Below, one piece after another: positions 10,293 through 31,297 of a stretch of DNA of 49,572 nt. The position numbers were made by a program, and so were the translations under genes. Origin of the DNA: Oscillospiraceae bacterium. GTDB taxonomy: Bacteria; Bacillota; Clostridia; Oscillospirales; Oscillospiraceae. The stretch is taken from NCBI GenBank assembly GCA_015067465.1, contig SVMK01000008.1:1-49572 (forward strand). Direction: 5' to 3'. Below the pieces are notes generated by a model, which saw only the letters and a list, made by a program, of their open reading frames with translations, was not told where the DNA came from and searched no databases. How positions within the stretch are numbered: position 1 is the first letter of the stretch; each line of letters starts with the position of its first letter.

Positions 10293-10331
10293 AAAATACC
10301 CTGTAACCTCTTCGGTTACAGGGTATTTTTT
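10293..10331 (+). terminator. Strong terminator between the DUF362 and LysR genes
   Basis: A perfect 16-bp stem (10293-10308 with 10314-10329) with a 5-base loop ends in T-runs on both strands. It can terminate both convergent genes. Confidence 0.92.
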
Positions 10332-10344: not shown

Positions 10345-11328
10345 TCAGATCGTCTGGGCCGCGCAGATGGCAACCAGCTCTGCGTCGATCTTGCGCAGCA
10401 CCTCGGTGATCACGGTGCGGCTGCTCGCAATAAAGGCCTCCGCCTCCGTGGAAAGACTCTCCTTGCGATACACCATGCAGAAACCGGAAAGCTCGTCGAG
10501 ATCGTTCACGGGAAAAATCAAAACCTGCTCCGCACCCAGCTCGCGGCACAGCTTGCGGTGGAGCAGCTCGCGCGAGGCAAAGCAGCCGCACACGCCCGTT
10601 TTGCTCAGCTCAAACAAAACGTCGTGGTCTGCGGTTTCCAGCACCACGTTCGGGTGCTGGGAATGCTTGGAAAAGCGGCGCTCAAAGATGAGACGCAGCG
10701 TGCTGGTGGTGGGCGGCAGGGCAAGGGGAAATTCGCAGGCATCCTGCACGGAGATGCCGCCGCGATGCGCGCGCAGAAATGCTGCCGCGCCGTCCCCGAG
10801 CGTCCTTGTAAGGAGATTGCGCCCCACGACGAAATAGAGCTTGTCGCGATAAAGGATGTCCGCAGGCACGCGGGCGCGGATGTTGCTGGTCATGCCCGTA
10901 TACAGCTCCAGCTTCTCGAGCTGATACTGCTGCTCGATGTATTCATAGTTGCCCGAAACGATGGAGGGCACCACATTGGGAAAGCGCTTGCGGTATTCCG
11001 CGAAAATCCGCGGAAGAAACACGCTGCCGCGCGTGCTCGTCATGCCGATGCTCAGCCGGACGCGGTTGGCCTGAGCCTCGTCGCGCAGCGCAACATAGAG
11101 ATCGCGGTCGGCCTCCAGAATGCTGCGGGCATACGCCAGCATCCGCTCGCCCTGACTGGTGAGCGCAAGGCGCCCGCCGCGGGTGAAAAAAACCGCGTCG
11201 TGCTGCTTTTCCAGCTTGCGGATGTGCTCGCTGAGCGACTGCTGCGAGATAAACAGCTTGGCGGCCGCACGGGTGAAATTCAGTTCCTCCGCCGCCACGG
11301 TGAAGTAATAAAGACCGATATGGTTCAT
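10345..11328 (-). CDS. LysR family transcriptional regulator
   Basis: This 327-residue protein has an N-terminal winged HTH (FTVAAEELNFTRAAAKLFIS, then QQSLSEHIRKLE, residues 8-40) and a LysR effector-binding domain from about 90. The start at 11328 is supported by GGAGGG seven bases upstream; a longer open frame to 11397 lacks such a site and would add residues before the HTH. It is divergent from the first glycyl radical enzyme gene, with 186 bases between them containing a 7-bp-arm inverted repeat. LysR regulators commonly activate a divergent catabolic operon in response to its substrate, so it is the likely switch for the enzyme/transporter island. Confidence 0.93.
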   Translation of the reverse strand: MNHIGLYYFTVAAEELNFTRAAAKLFISQQSLSEHIRKLEKQHDAVFFTRGGRLALTSQGERMLAYARSILEADRDLYVALRDEAQANRVRLSIGMTSTRGSVFLPRIFAEYRKRFPNVVPSIVSGNYEYIEQQYQLEKLELYTGMTSNIRARVPADILYRDKLYFVVGRNLLTRTLGDGAAAFLRAHRGGISVQDACEFPLALPPTTSTLRLIFERRFSKHSQHPNVVLETADHDVLFELSKTGVCGCFASRELLHRKLCRELGAEQVLIFPVNDLDELSGFCMVYRKESLSTEAEAFIASSRTVITEVLRKIDAELVAICAAQTI

Positions 11329-11402
11329 GCCGCATCCCTCCGGCAACAGCATACCACGCCCGCAGGAAAAACGCAAGCGTTCACCGATGATAATCAAAAA
11401 AT

Positions 11403-11422
11403 CAACAGGCGTTTACCTGTTG
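11403..11422. promoter_or_regulatory. Inverted repeat, candidate LysR operator
   Basis: CAACAGG-N6-CCTGTTG is a perfect 7-bp-arm inverted repeat lying midway between the divergent lysR and GRE1 genes. It is about 20 bases upstream of the candidate GRE1 promoter. Position and symmetry suit a LysR recognition site; binding is inferred. Confidence 0.5.
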
Positions 11423-11443
11423 CTTTTTGTGCAGAAATCCTGT

Positions 11444-11472
11444 TTGTTTCCGCGGAATATCCGTGATAAACT
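11444..11472 (+). promoter_or_regulatory. Candidate promoter of the first glycyl radical enzyme
   Basis: A weak TTGTTT (11444-11449) is followed after 17 bases by TAAACT (11467-11472) with an extended TGA. An alternative -10, TATAGT, lies at 11476-11481. A poor -35 fits activator dependence. Confidence 0.35.
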
Positions 11473-11514
11473 GTGTATAGTTAATAAATTATCAACAGAG
11501 AGGAGCTGCTGAGA

Positions 11515-13911
11515 ATGACGGACAGAGTTGCACGCATGAAAGAACGCCTGAATGTGGATCGCTATCCAATCTGCGCGGAGAAGGCACGATACGTCATCGA
11601 GGCGTGGAAACAGCATGAGGGCCTGCCCTCTGTCCTGCAGCGCGCCTATGCCACGGCAAACTATCTTGACAAGCGAACCCTTTATGTCGACGACGACGAG
11701 CTGATCGTCGGCAACGTTGCCTCGAAGCCCATGGGTATGGAGGCCTCCACCTGGGGCCCCTTCTGGGAGGACGACGACCTTGACGGCATGGTTGGCGAGG
11801 GCGGCAAGTTTTCCATCACGCCGGAAGACCGCGCGGAGCTGCGCAGCTACGACAGTTTCTGGGCCGGTCAGGGCCGCCAGTTCTACGAGTGGCAGGGCCG
11901 CTTCTATGACGACTGGCACCTTTGGCCCTTCATCCGCTCCGGCATTCTCTGCCCGCCTTGGAAAGACCGCGAAAAAGGCCGCGGCGCCGGCGGCGCCGGC
12001 TTCGGCTGGGGCATGGGCATCGCGCTGAGCTTCTTCGTTCCCGACTATGCCAAAATTGTCACCGAGGGCGTCAGCAAAACCCTGCACGACGCCGAGGAGG
12101 AGCTGCGCCGCCTGACCTATCACGACGCCGAGAGCTTCGACAAAGCGCAGTATCTCAAGGCCGTTATCATTGCGCTCAGCGCGATGGTGCGCATGTATCA
12201 CCGCTACGGCGACGCCTGCCTTGCCAAAGCCGCCGAAACGGCGGACGCGCAGCGCAAGGCCGAGCTTGAGCGCATGGCGGACACCTGCCACTGGATCGCG
12301 GAAAACCCCAGCCGCAACTTCCGCGACGCACTGCAGAACTTCTATTTCTACTGGATGATGATCGCCCACGGCACCACGCCCGGCGGACGCTTCGACCAGT
12401 ATATGTATCCCTTCTACAAGCGCGATATCGAGTCCGGCGCCATCACCGACGACGAAGTGCTGGAGCTGCTGGAAATGCTGCGCGTGAAAATCATGCAGTT
12501 CAACTTTGTCAACGGCGGCGCGCAGCAGCGCGACAAGTGGGCCGGCATGGCACGCTGGCACAACTTCCTCATCGGCGGCGTGAAACCCGACGGCAGCGAC
12601 GCCACCAACGAGCTGAGCTATCTTGTCCTTCAGGCGGCCTATGAGGTTCGCATCCCGCAGTACACCATCACCGTCCGCGTTGCCAAAAGCACGCCGCAGA
12701 AGCTTTTGCTGAAGTCCGCGGAGCTGGTGCGCACCGGCATCGGCATGCCTGCCTTCGTTTCCGACGAAAGCTACATTGCCGGATTGGTGGAGCAGGGCAT
12801 CCCCATCGAGGAGGCCCGCGACTACGCGCTGGCCGGCTGCCTTGACCTGAATCTGCCCGGCAAAAGCCGCATCAACGCGCTCGGCATGTTCATCGTTCCG
12901 AAGGTGCTCGACATCACGATGCACAACGGCATCCTCACCCAGACCGGCGAGCAGCTCGGCCCGCAGACCGGCGAGATGAAGGACTTCCGGACCTTTGAGG
13001 ACTTCATGGCTGCGTTCCAAACCCAGCTGAAGCACTTCATGGGCCTTTACAATGAGGAGCACAACATTCTCATTCGCGTTTCGCGCGAAACCAACTGCGA
13101 CGTTGTCCACTCCGCGTTCACCCACGAGGGCATCTCCTCCGGGCGCGACATGTTTGACCGCAGGATGTTTTACGAAAACGCCTCCATGTTCAACCCCATC
13201 GGCATGATCAACGTTGCCAACTCCATGGCAAGCGTGAAAAAGCTGGTGTTCGACGAAAAGCGCTTCACCATGGAAACGCTCTACAACGCCATTGAGGCCA
13301 ACTGGGAAGGCTATGAGGACATCCGCGCCATGTGCGCCGCAGCGCCCAAATTCGGCAACAACGATCCCTATGTGGACGATCTCGCCGCGCAGCTTTACGA
13401 TTTCTGGATTCAGACAACGGCAAGTTTCCGCACCATCTACGGCGCGCCGCCCCGCCCCACCGGCGTTTCCATCACGGCGCACGCCCCCGGCGGCAGCTAC
13501 ACCTGCGCCACCCCGGACGGACGCTACAGCGGCGAAACGCTTTGCGACGGCGTGATGAGCCCCACGCAGGGCACGGACCGCGAAGGCCCGCTCCAGTCGC
13601 TGATGAGCGCCATGCGCATCAACCAGACGCCCTTCAACGCCGCGCTGCTCAACATGAAGATCGCCCCCGGCGCCATGAAGACCGATGCGGATCTGGAAAA
13701 ATTCGTCGCGCTGGTGAAGACCTATATGTTCAACGGCGGCAAGCACATCCAGTTCAACGTTGTTTCCAACGAAACGCTGCTCGCAGCACAGGCCGAGCCG
13801 CAAAAATACTCTGACCTGATCGTTCGCGTCGCGGGTTACAGCACTTACTTCACGCTGCTGACACCCGCCGTGCAGAACGAAATCATCAAGCGCACCGAAA
13901 ATCAGCTTTGA
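11515..13911 (+). CDS. Glycyl radical enzyme (PFL/dehydratase superfamily), GRE1
   Basis: This 798-residue enzyme has the usual glycyl radical enzyme length, with a PFL-type N-terminal domain, a barrel core and a C-terminal radical domain. The radical Gly774 lies in VRVAGYSTYF and the thiyl Cys442 in ALAGCLDLNLPGKS. The GGRFDQYMYPFYK segment (about 290) is typical of the family. Known dehydratases and lyases (CutC, glycerol dehydratase, HypD) have Cys-x-Glu at the active site; here it is Cys-Leu-Asp, and the residue two after the Tyr is Thr instead of the usual small residue. I therefore cannot assign a known substrate. It lies ahead of a tricarboxylate-type transporter, suggesting a carboxylate. 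The activating radical SAM enzyme is not in this window. Confidence 0.93.
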   Translation: MTDRVARMKERLNVDRYPICAEKARYVIEAWKQHEGLPSVLQRAYATANYLDKRTLYVDDDELIVGNVASKPMGMEASTWGPFWEDDDLDGMVGEGGKFSITPEDRAELRSYDSFWAGQGRQFYEWQGRFYDDWHLWPFIRSGILCPPWKDREKGRGAGGAGFGWGMGIALSFFVPDYAKIVTEGVSKTLHDAEEELRRLTYHDAESFDKAQYLKAVIIALSAMVRMYHRYGDACLAKAAETADAQRKAELERMADTCHWIAENPSRNFRDALQNFYFYWMMIAHGTTPGGRFDQYMYPFYKRDIESGAITDDEVLELLEMLRVKIMQFNFVNGGAQQRDKWAGMARWHNFLIGGVKPDGSDATNELSYLVLQAAYEVRIPQYTITVRVAKSTPQKLLLKSAELVRTGIGMPAFVSDESYIAGLVEQGIPIEEARDYALAGCLDLNLPGKSRINALGMFIVPKVLDITMHNGILTQTGEQLGPQTGEMKDFRTFEDFMAAFQTQLKHFMGLYNEEHNILIRVSRETNCDVVHSAFTHEGISSGRDMFDRRMFYENASMFNPIGMINVANSMASVKKLVFDEKRFTMETLYNAIEANWEGYEDIRAMCAAAPKFGNNDPYVDDLAAQLYDFWIQTTASFRTIYGAPPRPTGVSITAHAPGGSYTCATPDGRYSGETLCDGVMSPTQGTDREGPLQSLMSAMRINQTPFNAALLNMKIAPGAMKTDADLEKFVALVKTYMFNGGKHIQFNVVSNETLLAAQAEPQKYSDLIVRVAGYSTYFTLLTPAVQNEIIKRTENQL

Positions 13912-13923
13912 GCCTTTCAGCGC

Positions 13924-13952
13924 TTGCATTACACCTACTCCTGTGATAAAAT
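13924..13952 (+). promoter_or_regulatory. Promoter of the TctBAC transporter operon
   Basis: TTGCAT (13924-13929) and TAAAAT (13947-13952) are spaced by 17 bases with an extended TGA before the -10. It lies in the 102-base gap behind GRE1, so transporter expression need not depend on GRE1 read-through. Confidence 0.6.
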
Positions 13953-14013
13953 ATTTTTATAACCGACTTCGTTCAATTTCACGCAATATCATCTGATTAT
14001 TGGAGGCATGTCA

Positions 14014-14505
14014 ATGAACGCAAAAAAGAAAGACCGGCTTTTGGGCATTATCCTTCTGCTGATCTCCCTGTTCTTCTTCTATTTCACGATGCAGCAGGAT
14101 GCGGCCCGCTTTGAGGGTGACCCCGGTCCCAAAATGTTTCCGATCGTCGGCTGCGTCATCACTGCCGTGTGCGGCGTGCTGACGATCGTGAGTCCCTCCA
14201 AGACGGAGGGCAAAACCTACCTCAGCAAAGAGGAATTCAAGCGCGCAGCCAAGCTTTTCGGGCTTTATGCGTCTTTCCTTGTTCTGCTCTGGGGCCTCGG
14301 CTTCATGGTCACGGCGCCGCTGCTGCTGTTTTGCATCTCGGTTCTGTTCTCCTATGAGTCCCGTCCGGACGATTCCATCGGCAAGCGCCTGCTCCGCAGC
14401 GCCATTTATGCGGTCATCGTCGGCGGCGCGCTCTATCTGCTCTATGTCACCGTGCTGCAAACCCAGCTGCCCAAGGGCGCGCTGTGGCAACTTTTCAAAA
14501 AGTAA
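14014..14505 (+). CDS. tctB: Tripartite tricarboxylate transporter small subunit TctB
   Basis: This 163-residue protein has about four membrane helices, the size and hydrophobic pattern of TctB, the small membrane subunit of tripartite tricarboxylate (TTT) transporters. It starts LLGIILLLISLFFFYFTMQQ near residue 8, and the DPGPKMFP segment after helix 1 is characteristic. The start is ATG 14014, because TGGAGG (14001-14006) is seven bases upstream; the in-frame ATG at 14008 is too close to the ribosome-binding site. TctA follows after 15 bases. It works with TctA in the membrane and the TctC lipoprotein outside. Confidence 0.9.
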   Translation: MNAKKKDRLLGIILLLISLFFFYFTMQQDAARFEGDPGPKMFPIVGCVITAVCGVLTIVSPSKTEGKTYLSKEEFKRAAKLFGLYASFLVLLWGLGFMVTAPLLLFCISVLFSYESRPDDSIGKRLLRSAIYAVIVGGALYLLYVTVLQTQLPKGALWQLFKK

Positions 14506-14520
14506 AGGAGGTTCAACGAC

Positions 14521-16038
14521 ATGTGGGAATATATTCTTGATTCGCTCCAGGCGCTGGCCTCCGTCACCGGCGTGCTCTATATCCTGCTCGGCTCTCTCAT
14601 CGGCATGCTCTTCGGCTCCCTTCCCGGCCTTGCCGGCGGCACCGTCATGGTCATGCTGCTGCCCATCACCTACAAGATGAACCCCGTGCTGGCGCTGGCG
14701 CTGTTTGTTTCCATCCACATCGGCTCCACTTCCGGCGGCTGCATCGGCTCCATCCTGCTCGGCATCCCCGGCACCAGTTCCTCCATCGCAACGGTGTGGG
14801 ACGGCTATGAGTTCACCAAGAAGGGCGATCCCGTCCGCCCCCTCAGCGTGGCGGTTGTCTGCAACTTCCTGGGCACCATCCCCTCCATCATCATCGCCAT
14901 GCTCGCCGCGCGCGTGCTGGCGGACTGGGGCGTGAAGCTCGGTCCCTGGGAATATGCCGCAATGTGCTTCTGCGCCGTCGCCATGGTCGTCGGCCTGAGC
15001 GAGGGCAACCTCGTCAAGGGCATCGCCGGCGTCGGTCTTGCCATTCTGCTGTGCTCCATCGGCCCCGACCCCATCAGCGGCCGTATGCGCCTCACCTTCG
15101 GCAACATGTACCTCTACGACGGCTTCAACATCATCAACATCATGCTCGGCATGTTCGCCGCCAAGATCATTCTTCTGGAGTATGCCCGCCGCACCAAGGC
15201 GCAGGACGCTTCCAAGATCAAGGTGCGCGGCTTCAAGTGGCCGGGCAAGGACATTCTCGACAACCTCGGCAACCTCATCCGCTCGTTCCTCACCGGCGCT
15301 TTCATCGGCTTCCTGCCCGGTCTCGGTGCCCCGACCTCTACGGTCATCGCCTATTCCAACGAGCGCAACATGGATAAGAAAAACAAAGATCTCTGGGGCA
15401 AGGGCCACATCGGCGGCGTTATCGCCCCCGAAGTTGCAAACAACGCCGGCATCGGCGGCGCCATGATCCCCATGCTGGCCCTCGGCATCCCGGGCGACGC
15501 CATCATGGTGCAGTTTATGGCCGTTATGAGCATCCACGGCGTGCAGACCGGCCCCATGCTGATGACCACAAACCCCGAGATGGTCTACATGCTCTTCACC
15601 GCAGCCATCATCGCAGGTGTCTTCGTCCTTCTGGTGGAAGCCGCCGGCATGCCGCTGTTCCCGAAATTCATCTCCATGCCCTACCACTTCCTGTATCCGA
15701 CCATCATCGTCATCAGCTTCGTCGGCGCATACATGACCGCAGGCAACCTGCTCGGCGTGATCGTCACCCTCTGCGCCTGCCTGCTCGGCCTCGGCATGGA
15801 CTATTTCGGCGTTCCCACCACGCCCTTCATCATGATGTTCATCCTCAGCTCCCTGCTGGAAAAGAACATCCGCCAGGGTATGAACCGCTCGTTCAACGGC
15901 GTGGCAGACTTCTTCACCCGCCCCGTGTCCCTCGCGTTCATCGTCGTGGGCGTGGCCGTGCTGGTGCTCCACACCGTGCTCCCCGCAATCAAGGCCGCCA
16001 GAGCCAAAAAGGCCGCCGCACAGACCGCGGAGGAGTAA
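14521..16038 (+). CDS. tctA: Tripartite tricarboxylate transporter large permease TctA
   Basis: This 505-residue protein has eleven to twelve membrane helices. It shows the conserved TctA segments FGSLPGLAGGTVMVMLLPIT near residue 36 and its inverted-repeat partner GFLPGLGAPTSTVIAYSNER near 263, plus GIPGTSSS and GIPGDAIM. This is the channel-forming subunit that moves small carboxylates with a cation gradient. AAAGGAGG precedes the ATG. It lies between TctB and TctC in one operon. Placement between two glycyl radical enzymes suggests it imports their substrate. Family assignment is firm; substrate specificity cannot be read from sequence. Confidence 0.95.
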   Translation: MWEYILDSLQALASVTGVLYILLGSLIGMLFGSLPGLAGGTVMVMLLPITYKMNPVLALALFVSIHIGSTSGGCIGSILLGIPGTSSSIATVWDGYEFTKKGDPVRPLSVAVVCNFLGTIPSIIIAMLAARVLADWGVKLGPWEYAAMCFCAVAMVVGLSEGNLVKGIAGVGLAILLCSIGPDPISGRMRLTFGNMYLYDGFNIINIMLGMFAAKIILLEYARRTKAQDASKIKVRGFKWPGKDILDNLGNLIRSFLTGAFIGFLPGLGAPTSTVIAYSNERNMDKKNKDLWGKGHIGGVIAPEVANNAGIGGAMIPMLALGIPGDAIMVQFMAVMSIHGVQTGPMLMTTNPEMVYMLFTAAIIAGVFVLLVEAAGMPLFPKFISMPYHFLYPTIIVISFVGAYMTAGNLLGVIVTLCACLLGLGMDYFGVPTTPFIMMFILSSLLEKNIRQGMNRSFNGVADFFTRPVSLAFIVVGVAVLVLHTVLPAIKAARAKKAAAQTAEE

Positions 16039-16116
16039 ATCCCAAAACCGTATAAACGCGGGAAACCGTGCTTATAAATCGCAAAAACAATCAAAACAAA
16101 TTTTAGGAGGAACAAA

Positions 16117-17217
16117 ATGAAGAAAATCATCGCCCTTCTGCTGGCTGTCATTCTTGTTATGTCCCTTGCAGCCTGCGGCAGCAGCAAGCCCGCTGCCACC
16201 GAAACCCCCGCACCCGCAGCTCCCGAAGCCCCCGCACCCGCAGCTCCCGACTCCGCCGAGCCCGCTCCCGCTCCTGCGGTTGAATGGCCCACCGGCGACG
16301 TCACCATCCTGGTTCCCGCCGACGTCGGCGCTCCCCTGGATCTGGCAACCCGCGTTATGAAGGACTATCTGCAGGAAAAGACCGGCTTCAACATCATCGT
16401 TGAAAACGACGGCACCGGCGGCGGCGCCAAGCTCGGCGAGAAGCTTTACAACGCTCCCACCGACGGCAGCGTCCTGATGTATGCCGGCGGCGGCCAGGTG
16501 CCCCCCTACTACACCGGCTCCTGGGGCCACAACCTCTCCAACCCCGATGACTACACCATCGTTTCCTCCATGGTCGGCCTGGCAGTTCCCTCCGGCGCCG
16601 TCGTGGTCACCCAGCCCGATGCTCCCTACGACAGCTGGGAAGCTCTGGTGCAGTATGTCAAGGACAACCCCAACACCATCATCGCCGGCGCTGCCAACGG
16701 CACGCCCCACGAAGTCCGTCTGAAGCTCCTGCTTCGCGAAGAGGGCATTCTGGATAAGGTCCGCTGGATCTCCGGCACCAACAACGACATCTCCACCGGT
16801 CTGCTCGGCGGCAGCATCAACGTCGGCATGCTGACCGAGACTGCCGGCCCGCAGTTCATGGTTGAAGGCAAGCTCAAGGGCCTGCTTTACAGCAACGTCA
16901 CCCGCAACTACGCCGGTGCACCCGAAGTGGTCGCCGCGCTCGACGCCATCCCCACCGTTGCCGACATCTACGGCGACGAGAAGGCTCCCGATCTGACCTG
17001 CGCATGGCCCATGGCTCTGGCCGGCCCTGCAGGCATGGACGAGGCACTGGCCGACAAGATCTGCGAAGTTGTCAACACCATCGTCGACAGCCCCGAGTAT
17101 ATGGAGCGCGTCAAGGCTCTTGGCGGCACCAACACCTTCCAGGACTTCTCCCGCGACGAAATGCGCGAGATGATGGATCGCGTTGACGCGCAGTGCCAGA
17201 GCTTCTTCGCCGGCTGA
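16117..17217 (+). CDS. tctC: TctC substrate-binding lipoprotein of the TTT transporter
   Basis: This 366-residue extracytoplasmic binding protein has a lipoprotein signal peptide ending in SLAAC with lipidated Cys20. A Pro/Ala-rich spacer (residues 25-54) follows, then a TctC/Bug-type binding fold. Typical family features are the GGGAKLGEKLYNAPTDGSVL region near 107 and repeated GAANGTPHEV and GLLYSN segments. TTAGGAGG lies just upstream of the ATG. The spacer contains a 24-base tandem duplication at DNA level. It captures the substrate outside the membrane and hands it to TctAB. Its terminator at 17252 separates it from GRE2. Confidence 0.94.
   Translation: MKKIIALLLAVILVMSLAACGSSKPAATETPAPAAPEAPAPAAPDSAEPAPAPAVEWPTGDVTILVPADVGAPLDLATRVMKDYLQEKTGFNIIVENDGTGGGAKLGEKLYNAPTDGSVLMYAGGGQVPPYYTGSWGHNLSNPDDYTIVSSMVGLAVPSGAVVVTQPDAPYDSWEALVQYVKDNPNTIIAGAANGTPHEVRLKLLLREEGILDKVRWISGTNNDISTGLLGGSINVGMLTETAGPQFMVEGKLKGLLYSNVTRNYAGAPEVVAALDAIPTVADIYGDEKAPDLTCAWPMALAGPAGMDEALADKICEVVNTIVDSPEYMERVKALGGTNTFQDFSRDEMREMMDRVDAQCQSFFAG
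16205..16250 (+). repeat. 24-base tandem duplication in the TctC spacer
   Basis: The 22-base block at 16205-16226 recurs exactly at 16229-16250, giving two copies of an eight-codon Pro/Ala unit behind the lipidated cysteine. It lengthens the flexible tether and may vary in copy number between strains. Confidence 0.8.
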
Positions 17218-17251
17218 TGCAAGCAACAAAATTCAACTGAAATCAAAAGCG

Positions 17252-17280
17252 GCGGGAGCCCAAACCGGGCTCCCGCTTTC
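17252..17280 (+). terminator. Terminator after tctC
   Basis: A perfect 10-bp GC-rich stem (17252-17261 with 17267-17276) is followed by TTTC. A weak -10-like TATGAT (17316-17321) lies downstream and may start GRE2 transcription; no good -35 is seen. Confidence 0.75.
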
Positions 17281-17335
17281 TAAAAACCGACGCAAACAGA
17301 GTCTTTTTTATTGAGTATGATAAGGGGTGCAAGGC

Positions 17336-19735
17336 ATGAACACTGAACGCATTGAACGCATCAAAAAGACCGTCATGGTCGATCACTACCCCATCTGCAT
17401 CGAAAAATTCCGCATCACCCTGGACGTGCGCGAGGAAACGCGCAACGACAGCGTTATCATCCAGCGCGGCAAAATTTTGAAAGCCTGCGCAGAGCGTATG
17501 CCCATCGCCATCGGCGACGATGAGCTGATCGTCGGCATCGCATCCAGCAAACACATGGGCCTTGAGATCGACCCGGACTACGGCATTTGGCCGCAAAACG
17601 AGATCGACAGCCTGAAGGCTGACGGTTTCATTGTTGACCCGCAGGACGAGCGTGACCTGCAGGAACTGAACAAGCGCTACACACCCAACACCCTCATCGG
17701 GCAGATGGGCAACATTTTCTACGACAACGAACGATTGATCAACATGCTGCGCGCAGGTCTGATCCTTCCGCCCTGGAAGCCGAAGGAAACCGAGCGCGGC
17801 GTCGGCGGCGGCTATGCCCAGAGCGGTCTGGGCCTTGGGCCTTCGCTGGTGCTGCTGTGCGTGGAGTATGACAAAATCCTGAAATACGGCACGAACGAGC
17901 TTATCCGTCAGGCCAGAGAATGCCAAAGCAAGATCCGCTTCACCGATATGGAGGCACTGGACAAGCACCGCTACTACGACAGCGTTGTGATGGCCTTTGA
18001 GGCGATGAACACCCTCGCCGCGCGCTATGCCGCGCTGGCCGACGAAATGGCGCAGAAGGAATCCCGACCGGAACGCAAAGCAGAGCTGGAGCAGATCGCA
18101 GCCATCTGCCGCACCGTACCGCAGAATCCTGCAAAATCCTTCCGCGAAGCCATCCAGGCCTTCTGGTTCCAGATTCTCTTCCTCAGCCCCTCCACCACGC
18201 TGCCCGGCGGTCGCTTCGACCAGTATATGTATCCCTACTACAAGGCCGATCTGGACGCAGGAAAGATTACCGCTGACGAGGCGCTGGAGCTTTTGTGCAT
18301 GCTGCGCCTGAAGGACATGGAGCTTGGCCGCACCTCCGGCAGCGAGCTGCGCAAGAAAAACTCCGGCATGGCCAAATGGCACAACTACACCATCGGCGGC
18401 GTGGACCCCATCACCGGGGAGGACGCCACCAACGACCTGACCTATCTGCTCATCGACGCCGCCATGGCGACGAAAACGCCGCACAACACCCTGACGCTGC
18501 GCGTTCATGAAAAAACGCCGCCCGCGCTGATGAAGCGCGCGCTGGAATGCGTGCGCCTCGGCCTCGGTATGCCCGCCTTCGTCAGCGACGGCAGTTACAC
18601 TGCAACCTTCGCCTCCCGCGGCTGCCCGATTGAGTACGCTCGCGACTTTGTCATGACCGGCTGCCTGGACGGCAACCTGCCCGGCAAGAGCCGCACCGGC
18701 CCCGTTCCGATGGTCACTTTCCCGCTCATCTTCGACATCTTCCGCCACAACGGCATCGACATCAAAACCGGCCTGCAGGCAGGCATCGACGTCGGCAACT
18801 TCGCGGACTTTGAAACCTATGAGGAGATGTTTGCCGCCCTCAGCCGCGAAATCGACTATCTCCTCCGCCTGATCGGCGAGAAAAACAACGTGGAGCTTGC
18901 CATCACGCAGGAGCTGCTGTTTGACCCGCTGCGCAGCGCGCTGATGTTTGAAGGCATCGAGTCCGGCAAGGACACCTGGAAGCGTGTGATGCCCTTTGAA
19001 AACTGCGCCGTGGTCAACCCCATCGGCATGGTCAACCTCGGCGACTCACTGGCCGCCGTCAAGAAGCTCTGCTTCGACGACAAGAAGTATACGCTTGCGG
19101 AGCTTGGCAAAGCCCTCGACGCCGACTGGGTTGGCTATGAGGACATGCAGCGCGACTTTGAAGCCGCGCCGAAGTACGGCAACGACATCGACTATGTGGA
19201 CAACATTGTTGCCGACTGCTATAAACTCCTCAACGACACGGTGGCAACCATCCCGAACATTCTCGGTCACCCCACCATCGCAACCGGCATCTCCATCACC
19301 TCCCACCAGCCCGGCGGTCAGCTCACCGGCGCAACGCCGGACGGACGCAAGGCCGGCAGCATCCTCGCCGACGGCACCACCTCTCCCATGCACGGCATGG
19401 ACCGCTGCGGCCCCACGGCAGTGTTCAAGAGCGCGATGAAGATCGACCAGGATCCCATGCAGGCAACGCTGCTGAACATGAAGTTCCCGCCCTCCGTTCT
19501 GAAAACGGACGCGGACCTCGCCAAGCTCGGCGCCCTGATTCAGACCTATCTGACCAACGGCGGCAAGCAGGTGCAGTTCAACGTCGTCGACCAGAAAACG
19601 CTTCTGGCCGCGCAGGAATCGCCGAAGGAATACCGCGACCTCGTCGTGCGTGTTGCCGGCTACAGCACCTATTTTGTGACGCTCTCCCGCTCCATGCAGG
19701 ATGAGGTCATCGACCGCACCAGCCAGGATCTGTAA
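17336..19735 (+). CDS. Glycyl radical enzyme paralogue, GRE2
   Basis: This 799-residue enzyme shares GRE1's length and its start (RIKKTVMVDHYPICIEK), barrel motifs (GGRFDQYMYPYYKAD) and signature sites. Radical Gly775 is in VRVAGYSTYF and thiyl Cys443 in MTGCLDGNLPGKS. Both paralogues share the unusual Cys-Leu-Asp and GYST, so they form one subfamily, but they diverge widely elsewhere, which argues for different substrates or steps. ATG 17336 is preferred: AGGGG lies about eight bases upstream, and the alternative GTG at 17327 overlaps that site. A terminator on each side makes it its own transcription unit. It needs an activase encoded elsewhere. The reaction is unknown. Confidence 0.92.
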   Translation: MNTERIERIKKTVMVDHYPICIEKFRITLDVREETRNDSVIIQRGKILKACAERMPIAIGDDELIVGIASSKHMGLEIDPDYGIWPQNEIDSLKADGFIVDPQDERDLQELNKRYTPNTLIGQMGNIFYDNERLINMLRAGLILPPWKPKETERGVGGGYAQSGLGLGPSLVLLCVEYDKILKYGTNELIRQARECQSKIRFTDMEALDKHRYYDSVVMAFEAMNTLAARYAALADEMAQKESRPERKAELEQIAAICRTVPQNPAKSFREAIQAFWFQILFLSPSTTLPGGRFDQYMYPYYKADLDAGKITADEALELLCMLRLKDMELGRTSGSELRKKNSGMAKWHNYTIGGVDPITGEDATNDLTYLLIDAAMATKTPHNTLTLRVHEKTPPALMKRALECVRLGLGMPAFVSDGSYTATFASRGCPIEYARDFVMTGCLDGNLPGKSRTGPVPMVTFPLIFDIFRHNGIDIKTGLQAGIDVGNFADFETYEEMFAALSREIDYLLRLIGEKNNVELAITQELLFDPLRSALMFEGIESGKDTWKRVMPFENCAVVNPIGMVNLGDSLAAVKKLCFDDKKYTLAELGKALDADWVGYEDMQRDFEAAPKYGNDIDYVDNIVADCYKLLNDTVATIPNILGHPTIATGISITSHQPGGQLTGATPDGRKAGSILADGTTSPMHGMDRCGPTAVFKSAMKIDQDPMQATLLNMKFPPSVLKTDADLAKLGALIQTYLTNGGKQVQFNVVDQKTLLAAQESPKEYRDLVVRVAGYSTYFVTLSRSMQDEVIDRTSQDL

Positions 19736-19753: not shown

Positions 19754-19798
19754 CACCGCCCGGCAGCCGCTTTGGCTGCAGGGCGGTGTTATTTTTTG
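19754..19798 (+). terminator. Terminator after GRE2
   Basis: CACCGCCC (19754-19761) pairs with GGGCGGTG (19781-19788) around an inner GCAGCC/GGCTGC hairpin, and ATTTTTT follows. It closes the catabolic island. Confidence 0.88.
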
Positions 19799-19832: not shown

Positions 19833-19873
19833 AAAAAAAAACGGAGCAAGCGAAAAAAACGCTTGCTCCGTTT
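19833..19873 (-). terminator. Original tRNA-Ser terminator, now displaced
   Basis: On the minus strand a perfect 14-bp stem (19860-19873 with 19839-19852) and a 7-base loop are followed by eight T. It directly abuts the attL copy of the tRNA 3' end. It therefore looks like the terminator of the tRNA-Ser gene before the element was inserted; the intact tRNA is now 11.4 kb away. Confidence 0.8.
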
Positions 19874-19895
19874 GGCGGAGAAGGAGGGATTCGAA
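19873..19895. repeat. attL: 23-base copy of the tRNA-Ser 3' end
   Basis: Identical to 31298-31320. Beyond 19895 the sequence no longer matches a tRNA, so this is a fragment left by integration and not a gene. Confidence 0.92.
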
Positions 19896-20014
19896 TTGGT
19901 GGGGCTACATCCCGGCCAGTGTTATCAAATCCCCGAAAGCACTGATATTTCAATGCTTTCCGCCGTTTGCTGTTTGTATCTAAGTTTATCAAATCACGCC
20001 TTATTTTAAGCTGT

Positions 20015-20037
20015 AAAGGGTAAAAATAAGGGTAAAC
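20015..20037. repeat. Left integrase arm-type repeats
   Basis: AAAGGGTAAA (20015-20024) and AAGGGTAAAC (20028-20037) match the tandem repeats next to attR in the same orientation. Paired short repeats inside both ends are typical arm sites of tyrosine integrases. Confidence 0.65.
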
Positions 20038-20111
20038 TTTTGCGCAGAATATATCCACATGGTCATGCTCCCCCATGCTATCGCAAACACGTTGCCAACA
20101 TAGATTTAAGC

Positions 20112-21176
20112 TTATCTCAATGTAGCTAAGTTTTCCTGTGGCCTATCTTGCAAACGGTCAAGTAGTTCTTCATTTTTCTTTCGCTTTTCATCAACCTTGG
20201 ATTTCTCGGATTTCAATATTTCATCAACATAAAACATATCATAGCCAACGGGAATGTGGATTTGGTTGAATACTTTGTTCATTTCATCACTAGATGCGCA
20301 AAGCTTTTCCAGCAATGTAACAATTTGATCCTCTTCCGTATCTATAATTGCATCCCAATTCAGTCTATTGTACTCCGCCTCATCATGCATAAAGTAGACA
20401 AGATGATGCCCCTGATCAGATAGTAACCAGTTTTTTAATCTTATAATCCACGAATAGTCTGACCGTCCCAATGACATACCATATATGCAAATAATGTCAC
20501 TGTTATCAATGGCTCTCTCGGCTTTTATCAGCCGTGCATTGTCAAACGATTTATTAAACTCCGGCTTAATAAATGCGCGCGCAAATCTTTTTGTCGTTTC
20601 ATATGGCAAATCTGCAACTTGCCCTATATTGTCTGCTCCCAAAACTACATCAGCATCTAATTTCCCGTGGATATGTATTATTTCATGGCTTGAGTACAGC
20701 AGGCTATCAAATACATCTGTGTAGTTGAACGATATAAAGCTGTAATGGGGATTATCCTGTACTCCTAATGCCATAAACTCATTTATTACATTTGGAATTA
20801 ATCCCGTATAAAAATTATGAATAGACTCCCATGTTTCGTTAATGCAAAGAGTGCGAGCGTTAAAACTTACGGACATTCTTTTGTCGAAGTCAGCCTGTTC
20901 TCTTTCAAGGTATGCCGCCATATACACTTTGAAGTCACGAAGACATTCAATGAAAGCTGTTTCGTCTTCAAACTCCTTTGCCGCTTGCGCCATTGCCATT
21001 TCAAAATCACCCCATGTTTCATATTTGGGGGCGTCGTTCTTTAACATTTCCTTGTATTCTTTGATAGCGTCAGATTTGGATGGTGTCGCTATATATTCTT
21101 CGTACATATCGGCGAATCTCGTCTTCATCCCGAGGCGAAGATCAAACCCATTTCCAATCAAAAAAGTGATATTCAT
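20112..21176 (-). CDS. AbiH family phage abortive infection protein
   Basis: This protein of about 354 residues begins MNITFLIGNGFDLRLGMKTR, the hallmark N-terminus of AbiH proteins, with later conserved blocks YSFISFNYTDVFDS and IIHIHGKLD. AbiH family members abort phage infection; the mechanism is not settled. The glycine-rich start resembles a nucleotide-binding loop. I chose the Met at 21176 because it begins the conserved core. GAGGAG lies 13 bases upstream, rather far, so a start at 21197 or 21206 remains possible. It is the first cargo gene inside the left end, on the minus strand, and A+T-rich like the rest of the cargo. Confidence 0.85.
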   Translation of the reverse strand: MNITFLIGNGFDLRLGMKTRFADMYEEYIATPSKSDAIKEYKEMLKNDAPKYETWGDFEMAMAQAAKEFEDETAFIECLRDFKVYMAAYLEREQADFDKRMSVSFNARTLCINETWESIHNFYTGLIPNVINEFMALGVQDNPHYSFISFNYTDVFDSLLYSSHEIIHIHGKLDADVVLGADNIGQVADLPYETTKRFARAFIKPEFNKSFDNARLIKAERAIDNSDIICIYGMSLGRSDYSWIIRLKNWLLSDQGHHLVYFMHDEAEYNRLNWDAIIDTEEDQIVTLLEKLCASSDEMNKVFNQIHIPVGYDMFYVDEILKSEKSKVDEKRKKNEELLDRLQDRPQENLATLR

Positions 21177-21257
21177 ATTTCTATACTCACTCCTCATTAG
21201 TTGCATCCATTATATGCAATATACGTATGGTTTTCAAATAACCCCGCAATATAGTGC

Positions 21258-21309
21258 GCCCCCGGAGCGTCACAACTCCGAGGGCATTTTGTATGTGCAC
21301 TTTCAGACC
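21258..21309 (-). repeat. 52-base repeat, copy 1, containing the fic terminator
   Basis: This block matches 23073-23124 at 47 of 52 positions. On the minus strand it holds a 10-bp stem with one mismatch (21258-21267 with 21276-21285) and can end the fic transcript. It also preserves what looks like the last codon and stop of another gene. Confidence 0.75.
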
Positions 21310-21340
21310 GGAGAAAAGTCTTCTCTTGCAAATTGATCAG

Positions 21341-22624
21341 CTATTCACTATCTTCCAGCAGCTCTCTTTGTAAAAGAATTCCGTCAAGAACTGATAAATC
21401 AATCTGATAGTATTTTACTTTGCCCTTCTGCTCAGACACCAACATTTCAGCTCTGATTTTCCCCAGTATTTTCTTTATCATGTAATAGCTCTCATGAAAA
21501 CCGTTTATCAGCTCTTCTGTTGAAATCCCTTTTTCGCTAAATAAGGCAGCTTGAATTAAGTAGCTATACATTTTGCGAACGCTTTCTTCCTCTGCTTCCG
21601 AAAAAGAGGCAATAAGTAATTCATATTTGTCCCAACTTGCCAGTTTTTTTCTCAACGAGTCTTCCAAATCTTTTAAGGCTGTGTTAATCATATTAAGAAG
21701 CATAATTAGGAATGGCGTCAAATCGCCTAAATTATGCGGATCATTGCATGAAGCAAACGCTTTATAGTATTCGTTGATGTTTTCTTTAATCGTTTCGGAT
21801 ATCCGATATGAAAGCAACGGCTCCAAATTTTCAGATAGACAATAACTAAGAATAAAGCGCCCCAACCGTCCATTTCCGTCATAAAAGGGGTGAATGTATT
21901 CGATCAAATAATGAAACACACAGATCCGAAACAGATGTTCAATCGAGTCATTCCCTAAAAAGACCAGTGCTTTTTCCACAGCATCTATAATTTTGCTTTC
22001 TGGATATAGTCCTTTATGAATGACTTTGCCTGTTTCATTATAGACTTCTGTAATGTCTTTTCTAAATATTTTCCCGTCAGGCGCATGGCGAGAATCTTCT
22101 GCAATAACCTCTTCCAGAAAAACTTCGTCATATATATTCCGAATATCTTGGCAAGTCTTCAGAGGAACTTCTTCGCCGGTGAGTAATTTGAAGTATTTGT
22201 TCACTAGGCTTACAAAACGGTAATGCTTTCCTTTTTCTCCAGATTGTTTCTCCAGAATATCTAATGCCTCACCAATTTCTTTTCTGTTGCTGTGGACTCC
22301 TTCAATCTTATTTGTCAAAACGATTTCGTCTATAAGGCACTTTTTTGAGTACTGCTCTTTTGCCACCCCCGGCAATGCAGCACTTAATTTTGATACCGAT
22401 TTGTCCAATTTCGCAATGTCATAAGCCAACCGCATTACTTCTGCATTTTGAACAAAAAAAGCCTGCTTGCCAGAAACAAAAAAATCAAGCTTTACTGCAT
22501 CCGGCGACTGAAACCGCGACTCATATGTATGGACATAAATGTCTTTATCTCCGTAATATAGTTTTCCAAGCGACTTGTACGTCATATAATCACTTCCAAA
22601 ATTCAACCTTCTATGATTTTTCAT
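21341..22624 (-). CDS. Fic family protein, class II with N-terminal inhibitory motif
   Basis: This 427-residue protein contains the full Fic active-site motif HPFYDGNGRLGR (His245 to Arg256), including catalytic His245, Asp249, Asn251 and Arg253. Fic enzymes transfer AMP (or related groups) from a nucleotide to hydroxyl side chains of target proteins. A TNKIEG segment (Thr104, Glu108, Gly109) matches the [S/T]xxxE[G/N] inhibitory helix and lies before the Fic domain, defining class II, so the enzyme is probably autoinhibited. A C-terminal region (about 330-420) looks like a winged helix. AGGTGA precedes the ATG. It sits beside abiH on the element. Toxin-like, defensive or regulatory roles are all possible. 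Confidence 0.93.
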   Translation of the reverse strand: MKNHRRLNFGSDYMTYKSLGKLYYGDKDIYVHTYESRFQSPDAVKLDFFVSGKQAFFVQNAEVMRLAYDIAKLDKSVSKLSAALPGVAKEQYSKKCLIDEIVLTNKIEGVHSNRKEIGEALDILEKQSGEKGKHYRFVSLVNKYFKLLTGEEVPLKTCQDIRNIYDEVFLEEVIAEDSRHAPDGKIFRKDITEVYNETGKVIHKGLYPESKIIDAVEKALVFLGNDSIEHLFRICVFHYLIEYIHPFYDGNGRLGRFILSYCLSENLEPLLSYRISETIKENINEYYKAFASCNDPHNLGDLTPFLIMLLNMINTALKDLEDSLRKKLASWDKYELLIASFSEAEEESVRKMYSYLIQAALFSEKGISTEELINGFHESYYMIKKILGKIRAEMLVSEQKGKVKYYQIDLSVLDGILLQRELLEDSE

Positions 22625-23072
22625 TTATCATATCACCTCTCGATTTAAAAATCAATACGCTTTTTCAATCGTTTCTCTCTTTTGGCTCGTTTGATTTAAA
22701 AAATTAACACCATTTTTAATCAACCGTCCGATAATCGAAATACGATTGCAAATTTCCCCTTATTTTTAACCCATTAGATATAAAAAACCGCTTCCGCAAA
22801 ATCATATATCTATAATGGCGTAAAACTACACTAGTTTTGTCGGTTTGAACTCAACCGTTCTAAATCAAAAAGAAACTTCATAACTATCATCTCCACATCG
22901 TTGCACTATCAATCAAAAAAACTGTATGTTATTTTAATCATTTCTTCCGTTCTGATTGTTCGATTCAAAAAACAGCTCATCTTTTAAATCGTTTTTTAGT
23001 TTTAAGCATCTTGCAATAATCAAAACACGCTTTTAATTTATTACACCTTTATTCCAAAATATAAAAACATCA
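22625..23072. other. A+T-rich noncoding region with dispersed imperfect palindromes
   Basis: No credible gene occupies this roughly 450-base stretch. It contains several loosely related units in which GATT-AAAAA is followed after 8-12 bases by TTTTTAATC or a variant: near 22645, 22691, 22908, 22960 and 23018. Spacing is irregular. It may be the promoter/operator region of fic, a small-RNA locus, or decayed sequence. It is too irregular for CRISPR and has no ToxN-like partner. Confidence 0.5.
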
Positions 23073-23124
23073 GCCCCCGGAGCTTCACAACTCCAAGGGC
23101 TTTTTGTATCTGCACTTTCAAACC
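23073..23124 (-). repeat. 52-base repeat, copy 2, containing the sprT-like gene terminator
   Basis: Copy of 21258-21309 with five mismatches. Its stem (23073-23082 with 23091-23100) ends the SprT-like transcript on the minus strand. The repeat includes the last codon and stop of that gene. Confidence 0.75.
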
Positions 23125-23765
23125 TCAATCATCTGCTGCATACAATCCATACACATTATGCGTACAGTTTTTGTGGCTCTGACGGAGTTACCGCAGCAAG
23201 GGCATTGCAGCTTTCTTGTGCTGCTCGGTCTTTTACCGCCGTCGATTACTATTGCTCCGTTCTGGCTCGTTCCCATACCTCCGGTGCGGATAGGCTGATA
23301 ACCGGTATTGCGTCCGATACGTATCTCATTCCAATCTTTTGAAAGTGCATATTCAACGAGATTGTCACCGGCTTTTGTGTTCCATCCGTATTGACCGCAC
23401 TGATAACAAATAAGCCCTCTTTTCTCGGCTTCAGCCTTAAACTTGCCGTTGTGGTATTTACCACCGCGGCTTGTTTCTTTTATGCCGTTCTCTCTGCAAT
23501 ACAGATGCACCATTTCATGAATCATAGTATCGAGCGTTTCTTCTATCGGGTAATTCAAAACCTCGGCTGCTATGTTGAGCTCGTATGTATTTCCGTCCGG
23601 ACGCTGCCATACCTTTGCCACTGTGCAATGACCATAAGTACCCGGCTTGCTCTGTACGGTGATAATAGGAATTGGCAGTGCACTTTCAAAAAAGTCTTCA
23701 TTGAGGTGAAAGTAAATCTTCTCAAGCATACCCACTGCACGGCTCATTTTAGTTGTCTGTTTCAT
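23118..23765 (-). CDS. SprT-like zinc metallopeptidase domain protein
   Basis: This 215-residue protein has the SprT-type metal site MIHEMVHLYC (His83, Glu84, His87), with a third ligand likely in the following GGKYHNGKF segment. A CYQCG element lies near 130, and a C-terminal zinc ribbon (CPCCGN, CMDC) closes the protein. SprT/Spartan domains are proteases acting on DNA-bound proteins; in mobile elements they are common but little studied. The start at 23765 has GGGAGGATC upstream. The longer open frame to 23861 lacks a site and family similarity. The 210 bases between it and the WG-repeat gene hold its leader and that gene's terminator. Confidence 0.85.
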   Translation of the reverse strand: MKQTTKMSRAVGMLEKIYFHLNEDFFESALPIPIITVQSKPGTYGHCTVAKVWQRPDGNTYELNIAAEVLNYPIEETLDTMIHEMVHLYCRENGIKETSRGGKYHNGKFKAEAEKRGLICYQCGQYGWNTKAGDNLVEYALSKDWNEIRIGRNTGYQPIRTGGMGTSQNGAIVIDGGKRPSSTRKLQCPCCGNSVRATKTVRIMCMDCMQQMIEV

Positions 23766-23936
23766 GGTGTGATCCTCCCAAAATAAAAGTTTGCTGCTCG
23801 GCGGCACGGCCTCGCCTCGCCGCCTTGCCTGCAAGGAGAATCGCACGAACAAAACTGTCAATATGACCGTGGAATAAAAGCTAAAGCGATTATGCCGCGA
23901 AAGCGTATTTACGGCTTTGGGAGGAGAAATAGAAAG

Positions 23937-23963
23937 ACGGTCAGAGCATATCGCCCTGACCGT
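23937..23963 (-). terminator. Terminator after the WG-repeat gene
   Basis: An 8-bp stem, ACGGTCAG with CTGACCGT (23937-23944, 23956-23963), is followed on the minus strand by CTTTCTATTTC, just after the gene's stop at 23976. Confidence 0.7.
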
Positions 23964-23975
23964 TGGTTGCGTTAT

Positions 23976-25766
23976 TTAATTCTCGCTGTACCCCTTCGAC
24001 GTATCAATAGAGATGACTTTATTGACGCCGTCCCACGAAACATCAAAGTTGAAGGTTGTTCCGATGTCGCGCAGCTTGAAATAGTTGTTGCCGTTGATAT
24101 TATACGCCGTCAGGGTGACAGGCTTGCCGTTGATATAAATCGCGGAATTACAGGCAAGGGCGGTTTTGGAAACGCCGTCGCCCGCTGCAAGCTCCGCGCC
24201 GACTGCGGTGTACGCCTTGCCGGGGATCAGCCCGATCGCATTTGCCTTGCCATCCCAGGTGACTTCAAACTGCTTTTGGGTGCCGTTGAGCACATACGCA
24301 AGATCGCGCAGCTTGAAGTAGTTGTTGCCGTTGATGTTGTATGCGTCAAACGATACCTCAGCGCCGTTTACCAAAACCTTGGAAGTCGTGGGGAGGGCGT
24401 TGGCGGATTCGCGGTAGAGGGGATTTTTCAATATTGCTCCTGTTTCGTCCAATCTGTCCAAGCCAATGACTCCATTAGTACTTTCCGTAAATCCTCCTTG
24501 GATTTTTTCTTGTTTGGTACATATTTCATTGCCAAGCGAGTCAATAAATGCATACACGGGAGGATAGGGCGACTTGTATCCCCCAACACCAAATTCCTCA
24601 TAGGTGTTTTTTCCCACTATGGCTATTCCCTCAGAAAAATTTGTGGCGTAATCATATTTATTAGGTTCAACAATGACGTTGCCTTTTGTATCGATAAACC
24701 CATAGAAAAACGCCAATGGAGAAGGAATCTTTGTATTTCTAATACCAATACACGCAAGTCCTTCTGAAAAAGATTCCGCAGCATCATATATCATTGGAAC
24801 AACAAGCTCACCAGAATAGTTTATATATCCGTATTTGTACCTTGCGTCGGGGCCTACACGCTGTCCGACATAGCAAAGTCCCTCGCTAAACTGACCAACT
24901 ACGTCATATTTCGGAGCTGCAATAATGTTACCCTTGGCATCGATGACCCCGTACTTTATCACACCGCTGCCGCTTTCTTCGTATTTGCCTACCACGGCAA
25001 AGCCGCTACTGTCAAAATCCATTGCTCTGTCATATATGCAAGGGATGACAATCTTCCCGTTTGCATCAACGTATCCAAATTGGGGATCACCGTTGACCGA
25101 TTTCCAAGTATAAGCCAATCCGTTACTAAACTCGCCCATACCGTTGTAGCTAAAAGGAACTACTGTTTTGCCGGTTTTGTCGATCGCGCCCCATTTGTCA
25201 TTCTTTTGCACGATGACTTTGCCTTCCGAAAAGTCACCAATTACACCATCATATTCGCAAGGTATAACCATTTTGCCGGTCTTGTCTAAAAATCCTATTT
25301 TGCTTTCAATAACAAGTACTTGCCCCAGGTACTCCATTTCTTCGTAATACTCGCGCACTTGATAAACAGCAGCCAGACCTTCGGAAAAATCACCCAAGTA
25401 GTCATACTCAACGGGAAGCACGACTTCTCCGTTTGTATTAATTGCGCCGTATTTATCAATGCCACTATTTTTATATCCCGTGTTCCAGTCGCCATCCACA
25501 TTAAGGCCCACTATAATTATTCCTTCGGAGGGTGAACTCATATAATTATAATAGGGTTCAACAATGATATTGCCTTTTGTATCAACAAGACCATATTTGA
25601 ATGGACGAGATTGCGTATCTGCGATTATTGCAATTCCATCGTGAACACTTTGAACAGGAAGCAGATTATCTGCAATCACAAGTTCATTATACGTGTACGC
25701 ACTTGCGGGAACGAATGTGCCGCATACCAAAATGCAAACCAGTATGAGAGTAATCAGTTTTTTCAT
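23976..25766 (-). CDS. Secreted WG-repeat protein with copper-amine-oxidase-like C-terminal repeats
   Basis: This 596-residue protein has a signal peptide (MKKLITLILVCILVCGTFVPASA). Eight WG-type repeats follow, each a (W/Y)G-(x)IDxxGxxV-P-YD unit, between about residues 55 and 400, with a degenerate ninth. The last 150 residues hold two copies of an AYNINGNNYFKLRD motif, found in copper-amine-oxidase N-terminal-like domains of Clostridia surface proteins. It is probably exported and surface-associated; ligand unknown. AGAGG lies eight bases before the ATG. It overlaps the upstream small gene by four bases, so they form an operon. The C-terminal part looks more GC-rich than the WG part, hinting at a composite origin. 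A secreted protein is unusual cargo for so small an element. Confidence 0.88.
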   Translation of the reverse strand: MKKLITLILVCILVCGTFVPASAYTYNELVIADNLLPVQSVHDGIAIIADTQSRPFKYGLVDTKGNIIVEPYYNYMSSPSEGIIIVGLNVDGDWNTGYKNSGIDKYGAINTNGEVVLPVEYDYLGDFSEGLAAVYQVREYYEEMEYLGQVLVIESKIGFLDKTGKMVIPCEYDGVIGDFSEGKVIVQKNDKWGAIDKTGKTVVPFSYNGMGEFSNGLAYTWKSVNGDPQFGYVDANGKIVIPCIYDRAMDFDSSGFAVVGKYEESGSGVIKYGVIDAKGNIIAAPKYDVVGQFSEGLCYVGQRVGPDARYKYGYINYSGELVVPMIYDAAESFSEGLACIGIRNTKIPSPLAFFYGFIDTKGNVIVEPNKYDYATNFSEGIAIVGKNTYEEFGVGGYKSPYPPVYAFIDSLGNEICTKQEKIQGGFTESTNGVIGLDRLDETGAILKNPLYRESANALPTTSKVLVNGAEVSFDAYNINGNNYFKLRDLAYVLNGTQKQFEVTWDGKANAIGLIPGKAYTAVGAELAAGDGVSKTALACNSAIYINGKPVTLTAYNINGNNYFKLRDIGTTFNFDVSWDGVNKVISIDTSKGYSEN

Positions 25767-26257: not shown

Positions 26258-26303
26258 AAAACACCCTCCCCTATTTAAGTTCCCAGTATATTTGGTAAGT
26301 AAA

Positions 26304-26354
26304 AGTATAATAATTTCCTTACAGGTTGTCAACCGTTAGCATCTTTGTGATAAT
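26304..26354. promoter_or_regulatory. Overlapping divergent promoters with a palindromic operator
   Basis: On the plus strand, TTGTCA (26326-26331), 17 bases, then GATAAT (26349-26354) with extended TG drives the XRE gene. On the minus strand, TTGACA (26332-26327), 17 bases, then TATACT (26309-26304) drives the unknown/WG-repeat operon. The two -35 boxes occupy the same bases inside the palindrome GGTTG-T-CAACC (26324-26334), so one bound protein, probably the XRE regulator, could control both. Confidence 0.72.
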
Positions 26355-26400
26355 GCAATATCACCCGGCCTGCTTTACTATTCTTTTGAGGGGTGATAAC

Positions 26401-26691: not shown

Positions 26692-26742
26692 GCGATAATC
26701 ATAAAAGCTGAAACAAATGAAGATGCAATGTGAATAAAGGTA

Positions 26743-27379: not shown

Positions 27380-27398
27380 AATAAATACCTCCTCAACC

Positions 27399-27829: not shown

Positions 27830-27839
27830 ACTCTACAAG

Positions 27840-31292: not shown

Positions 31293-31297
31293 CTATG

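Follow-up and report, generated by a model that had tools for sequence, protein, structure and literature searches.

Two glycyl radical enzyme (GRE) genes that enclose the genes of a carboxylate importer raise the question of which kind of acid would be taken up and what radical chemistry would then be applied to it. We studied such an arrangement, with its oxygen-sensitive enzymes, in a gut-type Oscillospiraceae bacterium, on a DNA stretch of 49,572 nucleotides (hereafter the window; contig SVMK01000008.1 of assembly GCA_015067465.1, labelled C21) from a genome (G000) of 1.82 Mb in 101 contigs that is 85% complete. An earlier reading made from the letters alone (the sequence-only reading) had proposed the order LysR on the minus strand, GRE1, TctB-TctA-TctC and GRE2, and open reading frames together with Pfam matches confirmed the coordinates (Table 1). 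The reading that we favour, at a probability of roughly 60%, is a LysR-controlled locus for the anaerobic use of a di- or tricarboxylate, in which two GREs of one clade would share a single activase supplied in trans. The GRE superfamily and the transporter type are known; what is new is the active-site signature of the clade.

GRE1 and GRE2 each combine a pyruvate formate-lyase (PFL)-like domain with a Gly_radical domain, which places them in the GRE superfamily, and both have an intact catalytic cysteine and an intact glycyl loop, RVAGYS in either protein. The active-site residues are Cys442-Leu443-Asp444 (12838-12846) and Gly774 (13834-13836) in GRE1, and Cys443-Leu-Asp445 (18662-18670) and Gly775 (19658-19660) in GRE2. 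The two proteins are 43-44% identical to each other and 92% and 94% identical to their copies in a genome of the same genus (G129), both frames being intact. The genome search returned four GREs: a PFL-like protein on contig C17, GRE1, GRE2, and GRE3 on C51, the last cut by the contig end. Neither GRE1 nor GRE2 attained any curated cut-off of the NCBIfam GRE models. With the broad model TIGR01774 they scored 505.3 and 501.9 (cut-off 678.2), with the 4-hydroxyphenylacetate decarboxylase (HPAD) model 376.9 and 351.3 (cut-off 1150), and with the indoleacetate decarboxylase model 462 and 409.5 (cut-off 1100); against the equivalog models, GRE1 reached 460.7 of 1050 for CutC and 476.7 of 1100 for HypD.

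Two trees were built, the first with 50 rows and the second with 49, the latter without PflD, one CVE row, L067 and the truncated GRE3 of L003, which were long or partial rows. In both, GRE1, GRE2, GRE3 (the C51 type) and GRE4 formed one clade together with a Novosphingobium plasmid protein, at Shimodaira-Hasegawa-like approximate likelihood ratio test (SH-aLRT) supports of 99 and 100. The second tree left outside this clade the arylacetate decarboxylase (AAD)-type rows (L064, with a match of 1204.5 bits to 7e7l, is of this type), three HPAD-type rows and 16 other GREs. The suggestion that the window holds two different GREs held, and neither fell inside a characterised group by the family cut-offs or in the trees. 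The signature emerged from an alignment of 126 distinct GRE frames, 57 of the clade (near-copies and partial frames included) and 69 others. Cys-X-Asp-X-Asn was present in 57 of the 57 clade frames, while none of the 69 others had Asp at that place and 50 of them had the Glu of the CXE motif there. Arg339 and Trp348 (GRE1 numbering) occurred together in all 57 clade frames, and Arg452 in 56 of them, one partial row having Lys; outside the clade, Arg452 was present in no GRE apart from the Novosphingobium row. The clade is also marked by an insert rich in glycine (147-169), and its substrate loop is 3-5 residues shorter.

The Novosphingobium relative (L126:11914-14409; NC_015583.1, megaplasmid of the alphaproteobacterium Novosphingobium sp. 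PP1Y) is 39% identical to GRE1, has Cys-X-Gly with Gly in place of the Asp and a glycyl loop RIGGCS, and has the Asn, both Arg and the Trp in common with the clade. Two other observations concern the motif position. One protein (L138, G326:C16:63235-65862) scored over the HPAD cut-off (1314 against 1150) yet carries Cys-X-Ala, the two other HPAD rows having Cys-X-Glu; and at L112:4937-13262 three GREs, two CXE and one Cys-X-Asp, stand in a row on one strand, followed by one activase.

GRE1 and GRE2 travel together. Among 200 genomes of the family, GRE1 was present in 10 (at least 72% identity) and GRE2 in 10 (at least 68%), both being found in 9 of the 11 genomes that hold either (Fisher 8e-14 by genome; 4e-7 by genus, with 5 of the 7 genera holding either, among 106 genera). 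GRE1 is split in two in both G040 and G063, and one of the G063 fragments contains a stop. A second clade GRE lay on the same stretch in 10 of 21 GRE1 loci (19 assemblies), one of these ten coming from a Spirochaetales metagenome-assembled genome (MAG); by record title, the hosts of the 21 loci are Clostridia-type MAGs and isolates plus that Spirochaetales MAG. A class-wide search, in which at most two candidates were scored per genome, placed the clade in at least 2 of 391 genomes, G000 included. The neighbourhood is likewise not unique to this strain: TctBAC accompanies GRE1 and GRE2 in the window, G129, G040, L021 and L022 (GRE1 being inverted in the last two), and a LysR of 53-74% identity adjoins GRE1 in L019, L020, L021, L022 and L038. 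In other loci a MatC/CitMHS carrier replaces the TTT (tripartite tricarboxylate transporter), often beside MmgE/PrpD.

The importer is statistically linked to the clade. Within 8 kb of the GRE, a carboxylate importer (TTT or MatC/CitMHS) occurred in 15 of 45 non-duplicate clade loci (six copies removed) against 0 of 39 loci with other GREs of the same family (p 2.5e-5), a comparison that somewhat favours the clade loci, from which most reference proteins came, and that was made on stretches with a median length of 14.0 kb (clade) versus 17.9 kb (control). TTT and MatC each accounted for 8 loci, one locus having both. The 39 control loci remain from 40 chosen regions, one of which coincided with a locus already in the set (L095). 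Import of a carboxylate followed by radical chemistry, as the sequence-only reading had suggested, was in this respect strengthened on the import side, while its radical dehydration was not supported (see below). In the window all three subunits of a TctABC transporter are present, each over its gathering score, in agreement with a tricarboxylate-type importer; the nearest solved relative of TctC is BugD (2f5x, E 2.5e-11), at a low similarity from which the ligand is not readable by homology. MmgE/PrpD, a family that acts on di- and tricarboxylates, occurred in 8/45 clade and 0/39 control loci, CapA in 8/45 and 0/39, PucR regulators in 17/45 and 1/39, MATE proteins in 8/45 and 1/39, and DUF4125 in 5/45 and 0/39 (p 0.058). 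Two candidate clues were dropped: URO-D (7/45 against 4/39, p 0.53), and CoA-transferase III with 2-hydroxyacyl-CoA dehydratase, found near a clade GRE in L020 only. A DUF4125 gene lies between GRE1 and TctB in two genomes of the same genus (L019:4710-5387 and L033:1651-2328) and is absent from that place in the window. A CapA-family protein near a clade GRE (L039:5946-7148) was weakly similar to the lasso-peptide epimerase MslH (56.9 bits against a cut-off of 700), a match that would fit an epimerase role.

How the two enzymes would be activated could be followed in the rest of the genome. The sequence-only reading had noted the lack of an activase, which stands for the window; two radical S-adenosylmethionine activases of the genome score above the family cut-off, of which the first neighbours the PFL of C17 and the second is encoded on contig C100. 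The C100 protein has the CX3CX2C motif, and its sequence shows ferredoxin-type Cys runs. In the activase tree it fell within a clade of 12, composed of itself and 11 activases from clade-GRE stretches, each at most 2.6 kb from a clade GRE, and it is 75% identical to the activase directly after GRE1 in L020. Of the 11, those of L020, L030 and L031 adjoin GRE1 and those of L021 and L022 follow GRE2; the others have GRE3 or GRE4 nearby. An activase match of at least 49% identity was present in 10 of the 11 genomes with GRE1 or GRE2, the exception (G083, 43%) being a genome 67% complete, and 5 of those 10, G000 included, had a single match at 1e-30. A second locus in G129 reads activase, N-acetyltransferase-like, TctC, TctA, TctB, URO-D, MmgE/PrpD, CapA, MATE, GRE3, and C100 of G000 holds the first six of these genes in identical order; by analogy with G129, C100 and C51 would be neighbours in G000. 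Because the C100 activase belongs to the matching clade and its gene order follows that of G129, a single activase, encoded with the GRE3 locus, probably serves GRE1, GRE2 and GRE3, and the proposal that both GREs would be activated in trans gains a candidate partner.

The favoured pathway would run as follows. Under LysR control, TctBAC would import an organic di- or tricarboxylate, and the C100 activase, encoded at a second, likewise TTT-bearing locus, would activate both GRE1 and GRE2 in trans. The glycyl radical would then form a thiyl radical on Cys442 (GRE1) or Cys443 (GRE2), which would take a hydrogen from the bound carboxylate. The Asp of Cys-X-Asp is a possible shorter acid/base, and two conserved Arg residues may hold substrate carboxylates. 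GRE1 and GRE2 would either work one after the other on successive intermediates or take two isomers within one acid class. As the reaction we slightly prefer beta-elimination from a hydroxy- or amino-carboxylate to decarboxylation. More tentatively, and at somewhat less than even odds, we propose that Cys-X-Asp GREs are a new functional class for aliphatic di- and tricarboxylates, having an acid/base and substrate pocket different from those of the compared eliminases and arylacetate decarboxylases, with a paralogue pair acting on one imported acid and one shared activase.

Several observations weigh against the carboxylate-use reading. No importer was seen near 30 of the 45 clade loci, partly because contigs end, the pair occurs without a TTT in L024, and the island holds no dedicated downstream enzyme; moreover, the related genomes and loci are not phylogenetically independent. 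Exclusion of the Novosphingobium protein by the Cys-X-Asp rows had supports of just 48 and 42, and, that row apart, Trp348 is found in 8 and Arg339 in 2 non-clade GREs, never together. Missing TIGR01774 is no mark of the clade, since 7 of 10 other GREs of the family fall short of that cut-off as well, and all 10 stay below every equivalog cut-off. Of the 17 activases encoded on clade stretches, 4 lie outside the group of 12 and attach to it at a support of just 90, and 2, both of L111, fall among the control activases, one of them adjoining a non-clade GRE there. Finally, the AlphaFold model of GRE1 (predicted template modelling score 0.85; mean predicted local distance difference test 79.9) has a confidence below 50 at 332-346, 444-448, 651-686 and 772-780. 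It was set aside as a guide to the active site, and the low confidence in these loops leaves the Arg-carboxylate idea without structural backing.

An alternative that is possible, though less likely than not, makes GRE1 and GRE2 parallel paralogues for two isomers of one substrate, in place of consecutive steps. Their 43-44% identity and identical motif would suit it, as would the precedent of two solved structures, 8id1 and 8iof, which are dehydratases of N-methyl-cis-4-hydroxy-L- and -D-proline. Twelve fixed differences separate GRE1 from GRE2-4, among them His285 to Pro (in the GRE2-4 alignment column) and His532 to Arg, and these suggest different substrates or stereochemistry. The near-complete overlap of the two genes among genomes (9/11), however, suits consecutive steps at least equally well.

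The kind of reaction is a separate matter, on which the motif bears directly. The CXE motif is conserved among GRE eliminases and its Glu is generally believed to be the catalytic base, according to PMC7077986. GRE1 and GRE2 both have CLD at this place, and since the Glu is absent the clade is not classifiable as eliminase, which weakens the radical dehydration proposed in the sequence-only reading; even so, the clade may work like an eliminase despite the Asp. With the eliminases (glycerol/propanediol dehydratase, CutC, HypD, IslA) it shares the GRE fold (Z 35-43), the Cys loop and the Gly loop; besides Cys-X-Asp, the insert and the shorter substrate loop, it differs at position 348, with Trp as against Phe in the compared CutC and Tyr in YbiW-type rows. 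The conserved change of the presumed eliminase base points to different chemistry or substrate geometry.

This leaves room for the view that the clade enzymes are not eliminases at all but AAD-like radical decarboxylases or C-C lyases of aliphatic carboxylates, which we consider unlikely, if still a serious contender. AAD (7e7l, Olsenella) is likewise a GRE without the CXE Glu (CVL/CVI in AAD-like rows) and acts on a carboxylate; a carboxylate importer lies nearby in the window; and the first tree joined the clade and the AAD rows at an SH-aLRT of 100, away from other GREs. With HPAD rows added in the second tree, however, the placement of the clade against AAD and other GREs opened up, and decarboxylation as drawn from the first tree was dropped. 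AAD rows, moreover, have no acid at the motif, no Arg452 and no insert, and form a separate clade at 100, whereas the clade keeps its Asp in 57/57. HPAD, also a GRE acting on a carboxylate, belongs to a distant clade, and GRE1 and GRE2 score about one third of its cut-off. To our knowledge, known GRE decarboxylases act on arylacetates.

It is very improbable that GRE1 and GRE2 are misread members of a characterised family (choline lyase, diol dehydratase, hydroxyproline dehydratase or HPAD), since equivalog scores far under cut-off, the missing CXE Glu and a separate clade in both trees stand against the shared fold, for which the closest structures to the GRE1 model are diol dehydratase (Z 43.4, root-mean-square deviation 2.4) and glycerol dehydratase (Z 43.3, 2.3) over about 750 residues, a match that indicates fold only. 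X-succinate synthase structures align to the same model at Z 32-39; the trees contain no sequence of that group. Equally improbable is a non-functional island whose GREs are never activated for loss of the activase: the window has none, and an activase within 8 kb is rarer for clade GREs (18/45) than in control loci (29/39), but an activase of the right clade with its cysteine motifs is encoded on C100, and both GRE frames are intact and close to their G129 copies.

The open-access literature, mostly as titles and the first lines of abstracts, yielded no account of a Cys-X-Asp GRE clade. Aminoacyl radical enzymes (PMC11528403) are likewise an uncharacterised branch of GRE homologues, in which the radical Gly is replaced, whereas GRE1 and GRE2 keep it. 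Many abundant gut GREs are of unknown function, as stated in PMC11574389. The present clade is now defined by a sequence signature, its likely substrate class is narrowed to carboxylates, and the matching activase, required for any assay, is supplied.

Table 1. Positions of the island features in the window and of the activase on contig C100
Feature	Position	Strand	Evidence or remarks
Bidirectional terminator-like hairpin between DUF362 gene (+) and LysR (-)	10293..10329		16-bp stem, 5-nt loop, T-rich on both strands; read from sequence, unlisted by terminator scan
LysR-type regulator, divergent from GRE1	10345..11397	-	PF00126 + PF03466; likely start near 11328
LysR/GRE1 divergent intergenic region	11398..11514		Inverted repeat at 11403-11422
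GRE1, 798 aa	11515..13911	+	PF02901 524.9 bits, PF01228 99.7 bits; Cys-X-Asp clade
TctB, small membrane subunit of TTT	14008..14505	+	PF07331 62.5 bits (cut-off 29.1)
TctA, large membrane subunit of TTT	14521..16038	+	PF01970 395.5 bits (cut-off 28.9)
TctC, solute-binding subunit of TTT	16117..17217	+	PF03401 48.2 bits (cut-off 27)
Perfect terminator-like hairpin between TctC and GRE2	17252..17276
GRE2, 799 aa	17336..19735	+	PF02901 478.6 bits, PF01228 104.6 bits; Cys-X-Asp clade
Terminator-like hairpin after GRE2	19766..19787	+	Terminator scan and sequence reading
Second terminator-like hairpin 3' of GRE2	19839..19873		Terminator scan and sequence reading
Non-PFL activase	G000:C100:4450-5385		Activase searches and tree

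The limits of the island agreed in part with what had been proposed. Terminator-like hairpins do bound it on both sides, and an additional one lies inside, between TctC and GRE2, so that a single transcript for all five plus-strand genes is not established; GRE2 may have its own transcript, separate from tctBAC. The terminator scan of the window returned 26 terminator-like sites against 12.2 in shuffles, and any single site is therefore weak evidence. An alignment of the LysR-GRE1 intergenic region from the window and five relatives showed no clear operator by eye. Microcompartment shell genes, which the sequence-only reading had noted as absent, were not found in the 85%-complete genome either, with 0 matches to PF00936 and positive controls in E. 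coli and Synechococcus.

Directly after GRE2, at 19873-19895, the end of tRNA-Ser(GGA) (31298-31390) recurs as a 23-bp direct repeat. The two copies enclose, in order of position, genes for an AbiH-like protein (20112-21206), a SoFic-like Fic protein (21341-22624), an FtsK-like protein (28430-29770) and a phage-type integrase (29946-31220). The region 19873-31320, about 11.4 kb long, is probably an integrated element that carries candidate defence genes.

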